Assembly: GCA_003612485.1 (NCBI GenBank)
Contig: RAZA01000006.1
Location: 62,001 to 126,000, forward strand
Length of the DNA stretch: 64,000 bases
Direction of reading: 5' to 3'
Origin: a bacterium D16-50
Lineage (GTDB): Bacteria; Bacillota; Clostridia; Lachnospirales; Lachnospiraceae
The first letter of the stretch is position 1, and each line of letters opens with the position of its first letter. The notes under the pieces were generated by a model, which was given only the letters and a program-made list of their open reading frames with translations, was not told where the DNA came from and did no database searches. This document shows positions 12,053-19,344 of the stretch, in pieces. Both the position numbers and the translations under genes were made by a program.

Positions 12053-12696
12053 ATGGAAGATAAAGAAATACTTGCTCAAAGTGATAATAAATATAATAAG
12101 ATTTCTGTTGAGCCAGATGAAAAATGCTTAGGTTCTCTGGGATACGGATATCTGAACAGTTTTTGACAAACAAGGGAATCAAAAAATGTATTGTTTTCCT
12201 TTCTGATAATCGTATATATGCGTGGCAATATGATAAATATTAGCAGCAATAAATTTGAACGCTTTAATATGCACCAAACTATTGATTTAGAGGATATTAC
12301 AAGAATAGGCTTTATCTATGCCGGCCCTCAATTATGGCAATTGATAATTGCACTTTTAACGATACCTCTCATCATTCCAGCGATTTTATTGATTGTGTCG
12401 TACATAAAAAGCAGAGATACCTTATTAAGTGTTCTCTTAAGAAATGCCTTATGCTTGTGATTGCCGGTTCCATATTAGTGGCAGTCAACATGATCATTGA
12501 TAAGCATACAGAATGGGTGGATAAAGCAAATGATTACCTTAAATGGATAGATAAATCCATTACCATGCCAGAGTGGATGAACCATATCATGAACGCTCTG
12601 GCGGTAATATGTGTTTTGTCTGCTGTTGCTTTATTCTTTTCAAAAAAGAAAGTAATTGAAATATCATTTACTGATAAAAGAATCTGTGTGCCGTAA
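12053..12696 (+). pseudogene. Frameshifted remnant of a small membrane protein
   Basis: One protein can be followed through successive reading frames. Starting at the ATG, the first frame gives EPDEKCLGSLGYGYLNSF and stops; one base over, the text goes on as FLTNKGIKKCIVFLSDNRIYAW; a second shift leads into INISSNKFERFNMHQTIDLEDI followed by a membrane segment (LIIALLTIPLIIPAILLIVSYI); a third shift enters CLMLVIAGSILVAVNM, a soluble stretch and a last membrane segment (ALAVICVLSAVALFF). At least three frameshifts therefore break an integral membrane protein with a soluble N-terminal domain. I cannot name the family. It directly precedes the invertible cassette. Confidence 0.6.
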
Positions 12697-12981: not shown

Positions 12982-13010
12982 TTGACTTTTTCAAGTAGTC
13001 GTTGTAAAAT
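12982..13010 (+). promoter_or_regulatory. Sigma-A promoter outside the left inverted repeat, reading into the cassette
   Basis: TTGACT, a spacer of exactly 17 bases, then TAAAAT. Transcription would start at about 13,017, at the very edge of the 94-bp inverted repeat, and run through the repeat into whichever gene faces it. In the present orientation that is the nuclease-ATPase gene. Because the promoter lies outside the repeat it would stay in place if the segment inverted. Confidence 0.7.
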
Positions 13011-13020
13011 GGGGAGTAGA

Positions 13021-13114
13021 AATGAAGGATAATTTAGGATTATCCGGTGAGTAGGGTAATGGGTAATTCCTTATTATCGGAGGGTGGGGAGCTAACAGAA
13101 AGCTGTCTGCCAGT
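13021..13114 (+). repeat. Left 94-bp inverted repeat of the cassette
   Basis: Base-for-base identical over 94 positions to the reverse complement of 17,909-18,002; the bases just outside and inside differ, so the match ends sharply. Within it lies a 19-base palindrome (13,027-13,045): GGATAAT, spacer TTAGG, ATTATCC, the size and shape of a tyrosine-recombinase core site with two arms and a short crossover region. Confidence 0.95.
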
Positions 13115-13149
13115 GACTTACATACCAAATAGTATATAATTTCACACAA

Positions 13150-16100
13150 ATGAGAGAAGAGAATCTTATGGAATATTTGATAGAGGAATACTGGAAAAAA
13201 ATTAACGCTGGCGAAAGTGCCAATAAGGGAATTAGTTTTGAGAAACTTGTTCAAGATTTATTGATTGCCGAATATGGGAAGGCAGCATTTCAAAATACAA
13301 AACATTCATGGGATGGAAGTAAAGATTTTTTTTGCTATTCTAAGCAAAAAAATTTCTGGGCCGAATGCAAGAACTATGCCTCTAGCATAGATTTACAAGT
13401 GCTGGCTTCTACAATAATTATGGCACAGATCTCTGAAATTGACACGGTGCTTTTTTATAGTTATTCGCCCATTAATATTAACACAAAAGCAAAGTTACTT
13501 ATAAATGCTGAGAAAAAAGGTAAAATAATATATTTTTATGATGATGTTGTGCTTGAAAGAAAAATATTTCAATATTGGGATTATATAGGAAAACAATATT
13601 TTTCTGGATTCCCTTATAAAGAAATATCTTCAGTACAATCAGAACAAAGTTTTGAAACAAAATGCCTCTTGTTTGGAAATCCTTTAGACACAGCTTCTTC
13701 AATAGAGGGATATGAGTTAAAACATTTGACTCTTTTTAAAATGTTTGAAATGAATATCTGCGTCATTAATAAAGAAAATAAAAGTAATACAATTTCTTTA
13801 GGATTCAAAAAAACTGAACATATTAAATCATACTTTGATATTTATCCTGAACATATTGTTAAATCAAAAATAGCAATATCTTTGGCTCCCTACGAGGGAA
13901 AAAACATTCGGATATGGTTTATACCTATCAAAGAAAATTGCACAATTCCGCATCCGTACATTAATGGTAAACGATTGTCTCTTCCTAAAAATGTAGAGTT
14001 TAAAGCATTAGAAGTTAGAAACAAAAATATAAGACGATTGATTGGACAAAGTTATGAGCAATGTCTTGTGGACTTTAAGCAGAATGTATTATTTGAAAAC
14101 AATAAATTGAAAATGGGGATATTCTACGGTAATAGTGGAACAGGAAAGTCAAAGCTTTATGAAGAATGCTTGAATATATCAAAAATCAATGGTTATGAAA
14201 TTATCAACTTTTGCAGTGCAATTAATACTGAAAGAGCGATATCTATACAAGACTTTGTTCAAAAACTGCTAATTGCTATTTATGATATATCATTGGATGT
14301 ACTTGAAAATATTCTCAGAGTTTTAACCTTTAATGAAAATAATGATCCAATTCTTTTACAACCAGAATATCGTATGCTGGCTGATATATTTTGCGTGAAA
14401 AATGAAATTGATATGAAAAATTGGATGGAACAATATTTGCAGTTAGTTGTATTAAAATTTGCAAAAAGCAAATATGTAATTGCAATTGATAATTTCCAAT
14501 TCTTTAGTGATAATATCCTTGATTTAGTCGATGATATATGCAATCGGTTAAATAATGTAAAACCTTGTTGTACGAAATTTTTGTTTACCTTTAATTTGGA
14601 TTATATAAAAAGGAATTCAAAAGCTGATAAACTATTAGGAAATTATACATCAAACCGTTTAGTTACTTTAGTTAAACATATTAAAGGCTTTGAAAATCAT
14701 AAAGAATGCTTTGAATTTTTACAAGAAGTTTTTTCTATTGGAGACATATTTCAGGATACAGAAATAAAGGAAATTTCACAAAACTTAAACCAAAATCCGT
14801 TTTATTTGGAACAAATGATATATTGGCTCCAAGAGAAGCATGTTTTAGAACAAGTAGAAAATCAATATATAGTTAAGAATGTATTCTTACTAAAAAGCCT
14901 AATCAGAAATATTCCAAATAACGTGTATGATATTTTAGTTGAACGCTGGGAGTATTATAAAAAGCATAATGATTTAGATTTCGAAAAAGCATTAACTCTT
15001 TTTTCTGCGATTCACTTATACAAAGAATTGGAGAAAAAGGATATTGATGATTTGCGCATTTCTTGGGATATGATTAAAGAATTGGAAAGAATGGGATTTT
15101 TAACAATAGAGGATTCTTTCAGCAGTATAAATATAAAATTTAGACATGATTTAATAGATAATTTCTTTTCGAAAATGTACAATTCTGTTTCTGAAATAAT
15201 TATTCTTTATGAAGAACAATTGGATTTTTGCTTGAGAAATACTGAGTTACGGTATTATTTTGGAATTCTTTATGCCTCAAAAGCAGAATGCTGCTTGTCT
15301 AATTCACAGTTATCGGAAGTTTTGACTCTTCAGATTGATGGTAGGCTAGCTTACGAATTCTATTTACTCGTTTTTGAAAAATGCCTTTCTAGCTTTGATA
15401 ATAATTACTCTAAAGATAAAATTGCTTGGATAAAGAATATGCATCAAACAATAATTTTTATTCACGATATTTTGGGTAATGCTACTATGAAAAAATGTAC
15501 AGATAGACTATTCTTTAAATTAAGGAATATTAATGAAATTTTTCTATATACAGAATATGGGAAATTATTACTCTACATAAGTGAAGCCTTTGACTCTATG
15601 GGAAATTATCAGGAGGCAGTTCGACTTATTAAAGAATACAAAGATAAAGCATTTGAAAATCAGAATATTAGTAATTACACATTACAACAGCGTAAACTTC
15701 TCTCAGAAATTTATAACCGGCTACATGTTTATTGCCGTCATCAGGTATTGGATCCTTTAGATAGCAAAGAGATTATGGATTATTTAAATACTTCGACCCA
15801 AATTGCTGATGATATTTCAGATGCTGTAATGCAATATGTAAATTACTCAGATAAAGGATATTTATATTATGATCTTCCTCTTTCTGATGAAAGACAAAAT
15901 AACACTGTGCGCTATTGGATGAATGCATGCAAAATATATGAAAGCGGTGGCGCAGAGACAAAATTACTAAATTATCTGAGAAAAAAAGTCCAGCTCGCTT
16001 TATTACAGGGAGAATCTGAAAAAGCTGTTCTGGCAGCAGAGTTAGGACTAGCTCAAATCGATTTTAGTCCTTATGCTTATCAACAAACCTTTTTTAAATG

Positions 16101-16470
16101 GTGGTTTAATCATGCTTTAGCGGAAGGATATTTGTTAAACTATGAGGCTAAAAATACAACTGCAATTGAAAAGGCCTTGGAACGCGCTCATTTTTTTTCA
16201 GAATTACTGGAGTCAAATAAAAAATTTTATTATTTACAGCTAAGATCTGTTTACATGTACTATTTAGGAAAAAGGGAAAAGGCAATTCTATTAAATAATG
16301 AGGCATTAGAGTTAGTGGAAACCAGCAATTATATAATGAAGAAAAATTCTATAAGATGCCAGTTATTAGAAAACGGTGAATTTTTATGCGAAAATGTTTC
16401 AAAATCGCAACGTGATTTATATTCTCAAGTTCATACTAAAGATTGGCTATTTAATTTACCGTGTATATAA
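13150..16470 (+). CDS. Nuclease-STAND ATPase protein resembling Avs antiphage proteins
   Basis: 1106 residues, strongly AT-rich. Residues about 20-140 form a Mrr/restriction-endonuclease-like PD-(D/E)XK domain: an opening helix GISFEKLVQDLL, then WDGSKDF (D55, D59) and WAECKNY (E72-x-K74), the catalytic D...ExK. A P-loop ATPase follows: Walker A GNSGTGKS at 327-334, Walker B hydrophobic strand ending in D447 (YVIAIDN), and a helical region with ENHKECFEFL/QNPFYLEQ features as in STAND/AP-ATPases. The last 450 residues are all-helical with TPR-like pairs (GNYQEAVRLIKEYKDKA, YLGKREKAILLNNEALEL). Nuclease, STAND ATPase and TPR sensor is the plan of Avs proteins, which detect phage proteins and then cut DNA; that role is inferred. 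The first ATG lacks a ribosome site; a second ATG six codons in has a weak one. It lies inside the inverted-repeat segment. Confidence 0.7.
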   Translation: MREENLMEYLIEEYWKKINAGESANKGISFEKLVQDLLIAEYGKAAFQNTKHSWDGSKDFFCYSKQKNFWAECKNYASSIDLQVLASTIIMAQISEIDTVLFYSYSPININTKAKLLINAEKKGKIIYFYDDVVLERKIFQYWDYIGKQYFSGFPYKEISSVQSEQSFETKCLLFGNPLDTASSIEGYELKHLTLFKMFEMNICVINKENKSNTISLGFKKTEHIKSYFDIYPEHIVKSKIAISLAPYEGKNIRIWFIPIKENCTIPHPYINGKRLSLPKNVEFKALEVRNKNIRRLIGQSYEQCLVDFKQNVLFENNKLKMGIFYGNSGTGKSKLYEECLNISKINGYEIINFCSAINTERAISIQDFVQKLLIAIYDISLDVLENILRVLTFNENNDPILLQPEYRMLADIFCVKNEIDMKNWMEQYLQLVVLKFAKSKYVIAIDNFQFFSDNILDLVDDICNRLNNVKPCCTKFLFTFNLDYIKRNSKADKLLGNYTSNRLVTLVKHIKGFENHKECFEFLQEVFSIGDIFQDTEIKEISQNLNQNPFYLEQMIYWLQEKHVLEQVENQYIVKNVFLLKSLIRNIPNNVYDILVERWEYYKKHNDLDFEKALTLFSAIHLYKELEKKDIDDLRISWDMIKELERMGFLTIEDSFSSINIKFRHDLIDNFFSKMYNSVSEIIILYEEQLDFCLRNTELRYYFGILYASKAECCLSNSQLSEVLTLQIDGRLAYEFYLLVFEKCLSSFDNNYSKDKIAWIKNMHQTIIFIHDILGNATMKKCTDRLFFKLRNINEIFLYTEYGKLLLYISEAFDSMGNYQEAVRLIKEYKDKAFENQNISNYTLQQRKLLSEIYNRLHVYCRHQVLDPLDSKEIMDYLNTSTQIADDISDAVMQYVNYSDKGYLYYDLPLSDERQNNTVRYWMNACKIYESGGAETKLLNYLRKKVQLALLQGESEKAVLAAELGLAQIDFSPYAYQQTFFKWWFNHALAEGYLLNYEAKNTTAIEKALERAHFFSELLESNKKFYYLQLRSVYMYYLGKREKAILLNNEALELVETSNYIMKKNSIRCQLLENGEFLCENVSKSQRDLYSQVHTKDWLFNLPCI

Positions 16471-16524
16471 ACCTACCGAAAACCGAACAAACTTGCCTAT
16501 GTATCCGATAATGAAAAATTAATT

Positions 16525-16689
16525 CTAGTATAATTCGTTTTAAATAACCTTATGTTTCGCTGGTCTGCTTTCCCGAGAGCATAAAGGGAAAATACTCAAC
16601 GCAGTACCACTACGCCTCTGCATTTCCCTTTGCACTCTTCAAAAGCATCCTCACCGAAACAGAAAGATATTTAAAACGAATTATATTAG
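16525..16689. repeat. MITE-like hairpin element between the two cassette genes
   Basis: Terminal inverted repeats of 22 bases (left CTAGTATAATTCGTTTTAAATA, right end with one mismatch) enclose about 120 bases that also pair: GTTTCG with CGAAAC, and AGGGAAAAT with ATTTCCCT near the centre. The whole could fold into one long hairpin. It sits between the 3' ends of two convergent genes, so it may act as a two-way terminator; it may equally be a miniature transposable element. Confidence 0.6.
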
Positions 16690-16729
16690 TATAAATTAAA
16701 TTTTATTGTGGTAAATTTAGAAAATTCAG

Positions 16730-17866
16730 CTACACAAGTTTTGCACTTATATCATAGGCGAATATAATGTTGCACTGTCGATCCACCACAATGTCTTTAG
16801 AAACATCGCGCAATCTAAAATAAAGGTCATTATTATGTAATGAAGCAAAGTTATCTACAAAGTAAATAAAGGGCATATTTGAACATAACATTTTAGAGGG
16901 GATATGGTCATAAAGGCTAATATGTGGAGCGTCTCTTTGGGAAATAACAATCTTTTTTTGATTTATAATAGTCATTCCCAAGGCCGGAAAAAGTTGGATA
17001 TAATCTTCGGCATCAAGTAATGTACAAAAGTTAAATAAATAATATCCATATTGAAAGCAAAAATCGGTACTTTTAATCCAGCCATACATGTAATTAAAGC
17101 ATTCAAAAATATCAGCTTTTATTTTGTTCTTATTTTTTGCATAAAAGGCGGCTTTTGAGTCTTCGCGTAAATATTGAAAGTTTTCATATTTGGAATTGTG
17201 CTCATCTGTATTTCCTTTATGATATATTATAGATTTGCTTGATACCCAAGTTTCGTAACCTAATTCCGAAATCTTAATGGAATAATCATTATCACAGTAT
17301 ATATATGGCATCGTAGTGTCTATGCCATTAACCTTATCAAATAAATAATGAGGAGTAAGAAATACGGCACCACAAGCAGATTGTACTTTCCTATCTGCCA
17401 AAGTACTCGGATGATTATACGGAAGTTCTTTGCCTATATGAATGGTATTAAAACGATTATATCCCATTCCAAAATCCATAATTCTATTATTTAGCGGATT
17501 AATTATTTTTGCACTTAATACACCTATATTTTCATGTTGATTAAAGCATTCAATAAGGTTTTCAAGCCAATTTTCTGTATAAAATAAGTCGGGATCGCAA
17601 AAAAGCAAGTATTCTTTATTGGTTCGGCTAGCTCCATAGTTAATGGCTCCTGGCCAAAATAAATTTTCATTTATTTTGTATATATTATATTTAATGAAAG
17701 TTGTATCTGTTAATTCCAATTCGTAGGGGTTACTGTTATTCGCCACAATATTGATTTCGGGACAATGTCCATGTAAGGAGTCATCCAAAGTAAAAAGGCT
17801 CAGCTTTAACATTTCAATATTTTTGTGAAAGGGAATAATAATAGATATATTGTCCTTTGTAACCAT
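16730..17866 (-). CDS. Family 2 glycosyltransferase
   Basis: 378 residues, AT-rich like its partner gene. The N-terminal GT-A domain is clear: ISIIIPFHKNIEMLKLSLFTLD, VANNSN, then LLFCDPDLFY with the metal-binding D91-P-D93, and a long acceptor-side region including CGAVFLTPHYLFDKV and YIYCDNDYSIKISELG (the ED/DxD-like acceptor motif of rhamnosyltransferase-type enzymes). It would transfer a sugar to a surface polysaccharide or protein at the inner face of the membrane. It starts 42 bases inside the right inverted repeat, after a GGGGGGG ribosome site, and reads toward the nuclease-ATPase gene. A TATAAT box and a TTGTTC-like box lie just inside the repeat, so a weak own promoter is possible. 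Confidence 0.8.
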   Translation of the reverse strand: MVTKDNISIIIPFHKNIEMLKLSLFTLDDSLHGHCPEINIVANNSNPYELELTDTTFIKYNIYKINENLFWPGAINYGASRTNKEYLLFCDPDLFYTENWLENLIECFNQHENIGVLSAKIINPLNNRIMDFGMGYNRFNTIHIGKELPYNHPSTLADRKVQSACGAVFLTPHYLFDKVNGIDTTMPYIYCDNDYSIKISELGYETWVSSKSIIYHKGNTDEHNSKYENFQYLREDSKAAFYAKNKNKIKADIFECFNYMYGWIKSTDFCFQYGYYLFNFCTLLDAEDYIQLFPALGMTIINQKKIVISQRDAPHISLYDHIPSKMLCSNMPFIYFVDNFASLHNNDLYFRLRDVSKDIVVDRQCNIIFAYDISAKLV

Positions 17867-17908
17867 GCTTGTACCCCCCCAATTAGTATTATATATGCTG
17901 GAACAAGT

Positions 17909-18002
17909 ACTGGCAGACAGCTTTCTGTTAGCTCCCCACCCTCCGATAATAAGGAATTACCCATTACCCTACTCACCGGATAATCCTAAATTATCCTTCA
18001 TT
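17909..18002 (-). repeat. Right 94-bp inverted repeat, overlapping the recombinase stop codon
   Basis: Reverse complement of 13,021-13,114 without a mismatch. Its 19-base palindromic core (17,978-17,996) covers the stop codon of the recombinase gene, whose last three codons also lie in the repeat. Inversion between the two copies would therefore leave the recombinase protein unchanged. Confidence 0.95.
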
Positions 18003-18917
18003 CATCCTCATCAGATTCCTCGGATGCTTATGCATCAAAATATCTTTTTGCTTGGTGTTGGAGACGTGGGTGTAGATTTCTGTTGTGCTGATGGAGCTGT
18101 GTCCCAGCATCTTTTGGATGTAGCGGATATCCACATCTTGCTCCAGCAGGAGTGTGGCAAAGGAATGGCGAAACATGTGGGGCGTGATGTGCTGGCTGAG
18201 GCCGGCAAGGCCGGCATAGCGGCTGATCATAAAGCGGACGGACTGGTCTGAAAGCTTATGTCCAAGCCTATTTACGAAAAAGTATCCGCAAATTTCGATG
18301 TCCTTTTGGAAGGTTTCCTGATATATGTTTAAGGCCGAGATGACTTCAGGGTTGCCGATTTGGAGAATTCTTTCTTTGGAGCCTTTTCCGTAGATCAGGA
18401 TATTGCTGCTTTTCAAATCTATGTCGGAGGGCCTTAGAGAGCATAGCTCCGATATGCGGACTCCGGTGGCGAACAGTAATTCAATTACAGCAATATCGCG
18501 GATGCAGCATCGAAGCTGATATTGGGATTTGGCTTCTTCCTTTTGCGCATACAGCGTGGATAAAAAGGTCTGGATAGAATGGAAGGGGATGGTTTTAGGG
18601 AGAAGTTTGGCTTCTCTGAAGCGTATGTCCAGCTTTGCAAAGGGCGTTTCGGGCACCAGTTCTCTGTACTCCAGATAGTGGAAAAAGGCTTTTAGGCTTG
18701 CGATTTTGCGTTTGACAGTTTTAGGCTTGTATTGTTTGTGAAGATTGGTGATGAAGCTGTCAACAGTGGATTTGGATGCATAGTCATGGATATCAGGGCA
18801 AAAAAGCTTATATTGCCGAAGATCTATTTTGTAGGATTTTAAAGTTTTGGGATCCAGACGCTTGCGGAATTGGCAATATTCAAGGTATTCGTCGATGGCG
18901 CTGTTCAAGGGTTTCAT
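17991..18917 (-). CDS. Tyrosine recombinase (XerC/XerD family) next to the invertible segment
   Basis: Cuts and rejoins DNA at paired sites. 308 residues from the chosen ATG, which has GGAG 11 bases upstream; a longer frame starting at 19,040 would add 41 residues not usual in the family. The N-terminal SAM-like core-binding domain (PLNSAIDEYLEYCQF ... TVKRKIASLKAFFHYLE) is followed by the catalytic domain with the full set: R154 (ATGVRISELC), K in GKGSKER, H247 and R250 (TPHMFRHSF), H273 (LGHSS) and nucleophile Y282 (TEIYTHVS). The active site is intact. The gene ends inside the right inverted repeat, which is therefore its most likely substrate, as in linked invertase-switch systems. Confidence 0.9.
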   Translation of the reverse strand: MKPLNSAIDEYLEYCQFRKRLDPKTLKSYKIDLRQYKLFCPDIHDYASKSTVDSFITNLHKQYKPKTVKRKIASLKAFFHYLEYRELVPETPFAKLDIRFREAKLLPKTIPFHSIQTFLSTLYAQKEEAKSQYQLRCCIRDIAVIELLFATGVRISELCSLRPSDIDLKSSNILIYGKGSKERILQIGNPEVISALNIYQETFQKDIEICGYFFVNRLGHKLSDQSVRFMISRYAGLAGLSQHITPHMFRHSFATLLLEQDVDIRYIQKMLGHSSISTTEIYTHVSNTKQKDILMHKHPRNLMRMNEG

Positions 18918-18971: not shown

Positions 18972-19145
18972 GTCCAGCTTGAGTATTTTTCTGGATAACG
19001 TATAATAAATTTCGCAAATTAATTTCAAAAAAATAGACATGATCTATAGCCGTTTGGTAGAATTAAGTCACCACAACAAAACCTACAAATGGAGGTCAAT
19101 TTGTACCATAAGATAAAGCGGACCGGATACGGCAGAACGGAAGAG

Positions 19146-19298
19146 CAGCCCAAACAAGCAGGACAAGCAAAACGAGCAAAGCAGCCCAAACAAGCAGGAC
19201 AAGCAAAACGAGCAGAGCAGCCAAAACAAGCAGGGCAGCCAAAACAAGCAGAATAGCGAAAACAGACAAAACAAACAACACAGCCAAAACAAACACAA
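19146..19298. repeat. Degenerate 9-bp tandem repeat array
   Basis: About 17 units of 9 bases related to CAAGCARAA / CAGCCCAAA, with a larger period of 36 bases visible at the left end. Being a multiple of three, it leaves frames open on both strands, but the resulting leucine-cysteine-phenylalanine string is not a credible protein. Confidence 0.8.
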
Positions 19299-19344
19299 CA
19301 GCCCCCATCACCGGCCCATTGTGGCCGGCGATGGGGGCTGTTTT
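19299..19344 (+). terminator. Strong hairpin, probably a two-way terminator
   Basis: CAGCCCCCATC pairs with GATGGGGGCTG, with an inner GGCC/GGCC extension, then TTTT on the plus strand. It lies between the recombinase start and the 3' end of the next minus-strand gene and probably ends that gene's transcript. Confidence 0.65.

Follow-up and report, generated by a model that had tools for sequence, protein, structure and literature searches.

The 64,000-nt stretch of DNA analyzed here (termed the window), from the Lachnospiraceae bacterium D16-50, contains a cassette of two convergent genes that is bounded by inverted repeats and lies next to a gene for a XerD-like tyrosine recombinase. This cassette is very probably a site-specific inversion switch that exchanges whole partner genes behind an outside promoter-like sequence. 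It is one of a family of cassettes within the Lachnospiraceae that share the same kind of putative recombination core, but that differ in their cargo, in which certain gene pairs recur. The inversion of such cassettes is well supported in relatives; the exact locus within the window presumably flips as well, with the adjacent recombinase as the presumed flipping enzyme.

An earlier note, made from the window's sequence alone, had reported a perfect 94-bp inverted repeat enclosing two convergent AT-rich genes, with an intact XerC/D-type recombinase gene ending inside the right copy. All of this holds: positions 13021-13114 and 17909-18002 are identical in inverse orientation, two open reading frames (ORFs) lie between them (13150-16470 on the plus strand and 16730-17866 on the minus strand), and the recombinase stop codon (17991-17993) is within the right arm. 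Genes were called with a script that takes the longest ORFs first. The features of the locus are as follows.

12982..13010, plus strand: promoter-like TTGACT-N17-TAAAAT, directed inward from a fixed position 10 bp beyond the left arm (consensus match only)
13021..13114, plus strand: left (recombinase-distal) 94-bp inverted-repeat arm (exact self-match of the window)
13027..13045, plus strand: left copy of the palindromic putative recombination core, GGATAAT-TTAGG-ATTATCC, conserved where the recombinase genes of close relatives end
13061..13079, plus strand: second core-like site, GGGTAAT-TCCTT-ATTATCG, in the left arm (from sequence)
13113..13140, plus strand: promoter-like site where the left arm meets the interior (consensus match only)
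13150..16470, plus strand: 1106-aa STAND-type protein with a PD-(D/E)xK/Mrr-like N-terminus, a P-loop (G332-K333) and C-terminal helical repeats
16730..17866, minus strand: 378-aa family-2 glycosyltransferase (GT2), the convergent partner (PF00535, 1e-11)
17888..17916, minus strand: promoter-like site where the right arm meets the interior (consensus match only)
17909..18002, minus strand: right (recombinase-proximal) 94-bp inverted-repeat arm, containing the recombinase stop codon (exact self-match)
17944..17962, minus strand: second core-like site in the right arm (from sequence)
17978..17996, minus strand: right copy of the core, overlapping the recombinase stop codon (from sequence comparison)
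17991..18917, minus strand: XerD-like tyrosine recombinase, 308 aa (ORF open from 19040, 349 aa; PF00589, 5e-41; start placed from relatives)

The alignment of the arms can be extended to 101 nt (13014-13114 with 17909-18009, 97% complementary). An exact match over 94 bp far exceeds anything expected by chance, and the window holds no further exact inverted pair of at least 30 nt whose copies are separated by more than 60 bp. Within the 4.96-Mb assembly, which is 97.4% complete, the arm sequence matches two places, both of them inside the window. The guanine-plus-cytosine (GC) fraction is 0.30 between the arms, as opposed to 0.53-0.54 in the flanking stretches.

Inversion is seen most directly among relatives (where L-numbers denote loci fetched from relatives and G-numbers denote genomes). 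The earlier note had proposed comparing related strains for the opposite arrangement, and one pair of genomes displays it: in L127, from the Lachnospiraceae metagenome-assembled genome (MAG) S26_Bin3, and L202, from the single-contig genome G341, the flanks are collinear and 97-98% identical (with a further 533-bp piece at 95%), yet the 4.68-kb cassette, itself 95% identical, is inverted in place, the alignment switching strand inside the shared core. No other genome pair with an in-place inversion was found among all fetched loci of at least 4 kb. The assembly of Hominisplanchenecus murintestinalis NM72_1-8 contains junctions of both orientations: a first contig reads recombinase-core-geneA, while a second carries outer flank-core-geneA, followed at the opposite end by geneB-core-recombinase flank; the overlap amounts to 55 nt. 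For two further genomes both orientations may be inferred from contig ends, since an assembly graph should break at such points only if alternative junctions occur in the reads. In Clostridium sp. HBUAS56010 the contigs bearing the recombinase, the far flank and the 3077-bp cassette all end exactly at a shared 18-bp core, and in Lacrimispora amygdalina src4 contig overlaps of exactly 119 nt surround the predicted two-orientation branch points, the shared repeat there being just 24 bp. The contig ends of MAGs G566 and G563 are similar; those of G344, G561 and G564 share at least 60 bp, which long arms alone can explain, and were left out as evidence for two orientations. Overall, the shared stretches at which inversion is observed or implied measure 18 to ~36 bp. 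Among the 80 loci retained of 219, a contig end lies within 300 bp of the recombinase gene on its 3' side in 21 and on its 5' side in 3 (p = 1.4e-4), an excess that on its own is weaker evidence because long repeats break contigs too. Thus the earlier note's proposal of an invertible cassette with an adjacent recombinase gains support from relatives through inverted cores, in-place inversion and both junction types in one assembly, and its suggestion that whole genes rather than a promoter are flipped is borne out by their inverted two-gene cassettes. As a separate observation, two recombinase loci of a single genome share a 4.5-kb piece, 90% identical and of opposite strand sense (L091 16473-20933 and L117 16011-20470); these pieces lie on both strands, but their layout is unlike that of L127 and L202.

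The actual recombination site is most likely a 19-bp core of the general form GGATAAT-N5-RTTATCC, with a 5-nt asymmetric spacer and one copy in each arm, the rest of the 94 bp being extra. This is suggested by the shortest arms, which hardly exceed the core; in L074 the arm is the 19-bp core itself. From 104 recombinase loci collected, of which L066, L072 and L073 were dropped as duplicates to leave 101 distinct ones for core and arm counts, 25 distinct loci (the window included) were chosen as having perfect arms, a near arm no more than ~270 bp from the recombinase stop and a partner ~2-9 kb off; the 33-bp inverted pair of L087, with its partner on the upstream side, was excluded from the cassettes. 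Perfect arms in these 25 loci range from 19 to 166 bp, ten pairs being just 19-29 bp long, and some in the family sample described below are only 17 bp long. In five relatives whose recombinases are 73-79% identical to that of the window (L007-L011), the core's surroundings are conserved where the recombinase gene ends, and the remaining arm differs; in a sixth close relative (L012) the contig stops inside the core. Among more distant relatives (L013-L017, recombinase 50-66% identical) the core lies further downstream in L014 and L015, and no core follows the recombinase in the other three (L013, L016 and L017). Conservation does not extend over the whole arm, because a DNA search of 397 family genomes with the 101-bp arm found, beyond its own genome, only 23-28-nt stretches surrounding the core, in two genomes. 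Within the genus, the core pattern matches in 17 of 138 genomes and a reversed-pattern control in 0 of 138; core pairs with the same spacer occur on one contig in six genomes of the genus, and all of these pairs are inverted.

A tyrosine recombinase requires identical spacers in its two partner sites. Because the motif had been derived from these same loci, a second search was made in which the spacer was left free. It found a near core in 63 of the 101 distinct loci, 37 of which have enough downstream sequence to be tested for a partner. A far core on the reverse strand is present in 26 of the 37, and in 23 of these 26 the best far core carries the identical 5-nt spacer (after shuffling, the mean is 1.8 and the maximum 9 in 2000). 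Some same-spacer far core in inverted orientation occurs in 25 of the 37 testable loci, and one in direct orientation in none (0/37). The remaining 11 have no far core, though 7 of these offer less than 2.6 kb of sequence to search.

Three peculiarities of individual loci may be mentioned here. The 166-bp arms of L147 (8219-8384 and 14819-14984) hold two cores with different spacers, so that crossover could occur at more than one place in each arm. The arms of L139 (11081-11192 and 14933-15044) extend over the start codons of the two convergent genes, whose proteins therefore share their first residues. After the recombinase gene, L129 has one core-like site and L137 has three, with no partner core within 10 kb; these are possibly empty or cassette-free sites.

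The window's recombinase matches Phage_integrase (5e-41) together with a SAM-like N-terminus, and the nearest solved structure is that of E. coli XerD (4.8e-32 against PDB). The most likely start codon is the internal ATG at 18917, which gives the 308-aa length of several close relatives and is closely preceded by AAGGAG. Of 397 Lachnospiraceae genomes drawn (the family sample), 45 have relatives at E <= 1e-90, amounting to 48 genes, and the surroundings of all 48 were inspected; some of these genomes are common to the 104-locus sample. Half of the recombinases (24/48) are flanked by a complete inverted-core pair, which in four cases (L255, L258, L203 and L204) is on the recombinase's 5' side. 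Another 12 are on contigs that stop within ~210 bp, with a core present in 11 of them.

From these data the following mechanism may be proposed. The recombinase encoded at 17991-18917 would act on the 19-bp core in each arm and thereby invert the 4.8 kb between the arms. Its own gene would be left unchanged by the flip, because the spacer sits just past its stop codon. Since both convergent genes start beside an arm, inversion would swap which of them is behind the left outside promoter-like sequence; the other would end up downstream of the recombinase. The two members of a pair would then be expressed either alternately or in swapped dose. Either-or expression would be the likely outcome, with swapped dose as its main rival. 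In three loci with short arms (L076, L088 and L126) both genes start within 2-33 bp of an arm, so that an inner promoter hardly fits.

Several observations weigh against this proposal. The window's own locus is seen in one orientation only, in one assembly. In the family sample, 12 of the 48 recombinases have neither a core pair nor a contig break, and 38 of the 101 distinct recombinase loci lack a near core (though in six cases the contig ends within 420 bp). The signal for an outside promoter is weak over 23 loci: an exact TATAAT occurs 15 times inward and 7 times outward (p = 0.07), and a relaxed -10 motif ~23 times inward and 18 times outward. A crude scan placed a terminator between recombinase and core in 4 of 10 loci. 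Moreover, the window has further promoter-like sites just inside each arm, which could allow transcription of both genes whichever way the cassette lies. Finally, both components of the Thoeris immune system are thought to be necessary together, and strict either-or expression is therefore ill-suited to the Thoeris-like cassettes described below.

These cassettes vary in their cargo, yet certain pairs recur. In 21 of the 25 chosen loci the gene adjoining each arm points inward (the exceptions being L062, L145, L147 and L154), and the facing genes overlap at their 3' ends at 13 of the 25 convergent junctions. Eight types of pair can be distinguished, the assignments for some loci (L240 among them) resting on BLAST similarity rather than on Pfam; the remaining cassettes were seen once or fall outside these types.

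GT2 or nucleotidyl/glycosyl transferase versus Mrr/STAND-type protein: window, L102, L127, L133, L147, L148, L200, L202, L203, L204
D-Ala-D-Ala-ligase-like ATP-grasp versus TIR: L076, L111, L254, L256
SIR2-STALD versus TIR: L075, L106, L240, L186 (G563 contig)
Radical SAM, with or without ATP-grasp, versus pentapeptide repeats: L083, L132, L139, L237, L242
Radical SAM versus TIR: L153, L272
Polyprenyl synthase and a partner of unknown family, with an FAD enzyme also in L145 and L154: L135, L145, L154
352/562-aa pair without Pfam matches, the smaller weakly ATP-grasp-like: L088, L258, L267, L275, L277
ATP-grasp versus AAA/TPR-like protein: L063, L243

In seven of the eight types either member can adjoin the 3' end of the recombinase gene; the radical SAM/TIR pair occurs one way only (in two loci). 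This count excludes pairs of the SHMT type, for which homology between the partners in L051 and L273 was not established; the 5'-side cassettes L203, L204, L255 and L258, where 'near' has another meaning; and L200 and L186, which have no recombinase on the fetched stretch and hence no defined orientation. Opposite orientations are illustrated by L240 and L106 (proteins 74-77% identical) and by L256 and L111 (75-81%). In L106, PADLOC identifies the SIR2 protein as ThsA (1.1e-59), and for the TIR protein lists PDC-S66 as best (6.3e-21) and ThsB as second (5.6e-12). In L075 (2064-3410) the ThsA-like gene is apparently split into ORFs of 129 and 313 aa, and this copy may be broken.

The window's own pair is not Thoeris, in that neither Pfam nor PADLOC finds a ThsA- or ThsB-type protein; PADLOC returns nothing for the four window proteins scanned. 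The 1106-aa protein has no match of its own in Pfam or PADLOC, but its homologues in L127 and L133 match Mrr_cat above the cut-off (that in L102 falls below it), and homologues also match AAA models, some of them below the cut-off. A six-way alignment of this family conserves E31, D55, D59, E72, K74, G332, K333 and D447 (with E72 and K74 forming an E-x-K motif), a pattern that fits a PD-(D/E)xK nuclease joined to a P-loop NTPase. The structure model is poor (mean predicted local distance difference test score, pLDDT, of 57), and for that reason the low-scoring Foldseek matches of this low-confidence model (by template-modelling, or TM, score) to 6mfv, a STAND protein with TPRs, and to 8dgf, Avs4, are only a hint. 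A profile of the STAND protein, built from six homologues that all come from cassettes, matches in 5 of the 397 genomes at E <= 1e-30, the window's own included, and in all five the gene lies opposite a GT2 gene between inverted cores. Cargo pairs appear to move between genomes as units, because L203, from another genus, has window-like cargo (76% identical at the nucleotide level) beside a recombinase that is only 54% identical. Part of the cassette cargo resembles anti-phage systems, and the most likely reading of the pair is as a conflict (anti-phage-type) module, in which a small-molecule or sugar enzyme faces an effector or sensor protein; its role would then be one of defence.

Of the explanations that compete with a gene-exchanging inversion switch, the one to be taken most seriously, though it seems rather unlikely, is that the pair is a two-component immune system whose genes are both always transcribed--one from the outside promoter and the other by read-through from the recombinase gene--so that inversion merely swaps their relative dose. 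Consistent with this, pairs of a ThsA-like SIR2 and a ThsB-like TIR protein recur as units, and known Thoeris partners cooperate; the clade nearest the window leaves no room for a terminator between the recombinase stop and the core; and the window's arms both contain promoter-like sites. Yet simultaneous transcription would lead to collision where the 3' ends overlap, as they do at those 13 of 25 junctions, and the genes that begin 2-33 bp from an arm in L076, L088 and L126 leave little space for inner promoters. More doubtful still, though of considerable interest if true, is the idea that two-component immune modules, Thoeris-like ones included, are split onto opposite strands of a cassette so that they are never co-transcribed, and are armed only just after a flip, through protein carry-over, or else as two complementary subpopulations. 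DNA inversion would then be a safety catch for immunity of the abortive-infection type.

The other explanations concern the nature of the repeats. That the recombinase-proximal arm is an integron-like attachment site for capturing mobile cassettes, with inversion as a by-product, is improbable: very different cargo does occur at the same kind of core, L129 and L137 have near cores and no partner within 10 kb, and in several loci the inner arm ends appear, by eye, to lie near secondary cores; but integration of a circle yields direct repeats, whereas the same-spacer partners are inverted wherever they were found, and no multi-cassette arrays were noticed, though no search was aimed at arrays. 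It is more improbable still that the 94-bp repeats are the terminal repeats of a transposon-like element whose two cargo genes happen to lie beside an unrelated recombinase gene. The low GC of the cargo relative to its surroundings and the homologous cargo beside a different recombinase in another genus, which implies movement between genomes, are what such an element would predict; neither gene between the arms encodes a transposase, however, the bases just beyond the two arms differ and so reveal no target duplication, the core is linked to the 3' end of the recombinase gene across many genomes, and the in-place inversion with unchanged flanks in relatives largely refutes it. Nor is there much to recommend RecA-dependent recombination between long repeats with the recombinase as a bystander, which is given hardly any credence here. 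Ninety-four identical base pairs could in principle carry homologous exchange, but not so readily the arm pairs of 19-29 bp (10 of 25) or 17 bp, nor the short stretches (18 to ~36 bp) at which inversion is seen or implied; and spacer identity and linkage to a recombinase are hallmarks of site-specific recombination.

A gene-exchanging inversion switch has well-known counterparts. The G segment of phage Mu and the C segment of P1 are flipped by the serine invertases Gin and Cin, which thereby swap tail-fibre genes, and in Mu a single promoter lies outside the segment. Like these, the cassette is a segment of a few kb with convergent alternative genes that is presumably flipped between short inverted sites; unlike them, it is associated with a XerD-like tyrosine recombinase, is chromosomal and carries conflict-type and enzyme genes. 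PMC5903667 names the inversions in Mu and P1, and also mentions an 844-bp segment enclosing a recombinase gene. The cassettes likewise resemble the alternating mba and UU172 loci of Ureaplasma and the vsp and vpma loci of mycoplasmas, as far as these are covered in the available text of PMC3047005, but differ from these surface-protein loci in that their cargo comprises unrelated, intact gene pairs recurring as units and in that the 3' end of the recombinase gene can overlap the site; a related paper, in the part available (PMC3599477), considers three putative tyrosine recombinases as possible mediators. Short inverted repeats, a linked tyrosine recombinase and a mixture of orientations are shared with the invertons and invertible promoters of gut bacteria and C. 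difficile (excerpts of PMC11892184 and PMC5903667). PMC11892184 reports that inverton group 139, from Clostridia, is tied to a group of tyrosine recombinases; the example quoted there has ~200 bp between repeats, unlike the cassettes here, which span ~2-9 kb and contain whole-gene pairs. The passages of PMC7159879 reached by a term search contain no text on inversion. Among the literature matches listed, and as far as titles and abstract openings reveal, no such gene-swap cassette is evident, subscription papers being mostly outside the scope of this search.

With regard to immunity, L106 and L240 are like Thoeris in carrying a ThsA-like SIR2-STALD protein and TIR proteins of a kind that matches ThsB models, but whereas Thoeris genes run together, these face each other within an invertible cassette. 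The nuclease-NTPase-repeat layout of the window's 1106-aa protein recalls the Avs/STAND anti-phage NTPases, Avs4 being among its low-scoring fold matches; unlike Avs, it has no PADLOC match and has a glycosyltransferase partner in each genome where it was found. The cassette sites of integrons are directly repeated, in contrast to the partner cores here.

If substantiated, the proposed switch would widen the notion of phase variation from the flipping of promoters to the swapping of recurrently paired whole genes, apparently by a dedicated tyrosine recombinase. Because a Thoeris-like pair is split across strands, it becomes testable whether bacteria control costly immunity through DNA inversion. 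More generally, core-bounded cassettes offer a route to new two-gene conflict systems, and the core together with its recombinase may serve as a compact gene-swap tool.

A few minor features of the window remain. Scans with Rfam and for tRNAs gave no matches. Between the convergent genes lies an imperfect hairpin (16517-16697) with 46-nt arms that are 85% complementary and 89 nt apart; it is single-copy in the genome, which rules it out as a repeated element, and it falls outside the stretches that align with the similar L203 cassette. A 36-nt inverted match (81%) connects the AT-rich left flank (12172-12207) with the interior of the STAND gene (13580-13615), and may be due to chance or be an old remnant. 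Just upstream of the recombinase ORF, at 19144-19342, is a 9-bp-periodic repeat array followed by a strong terminator-like hairpin.

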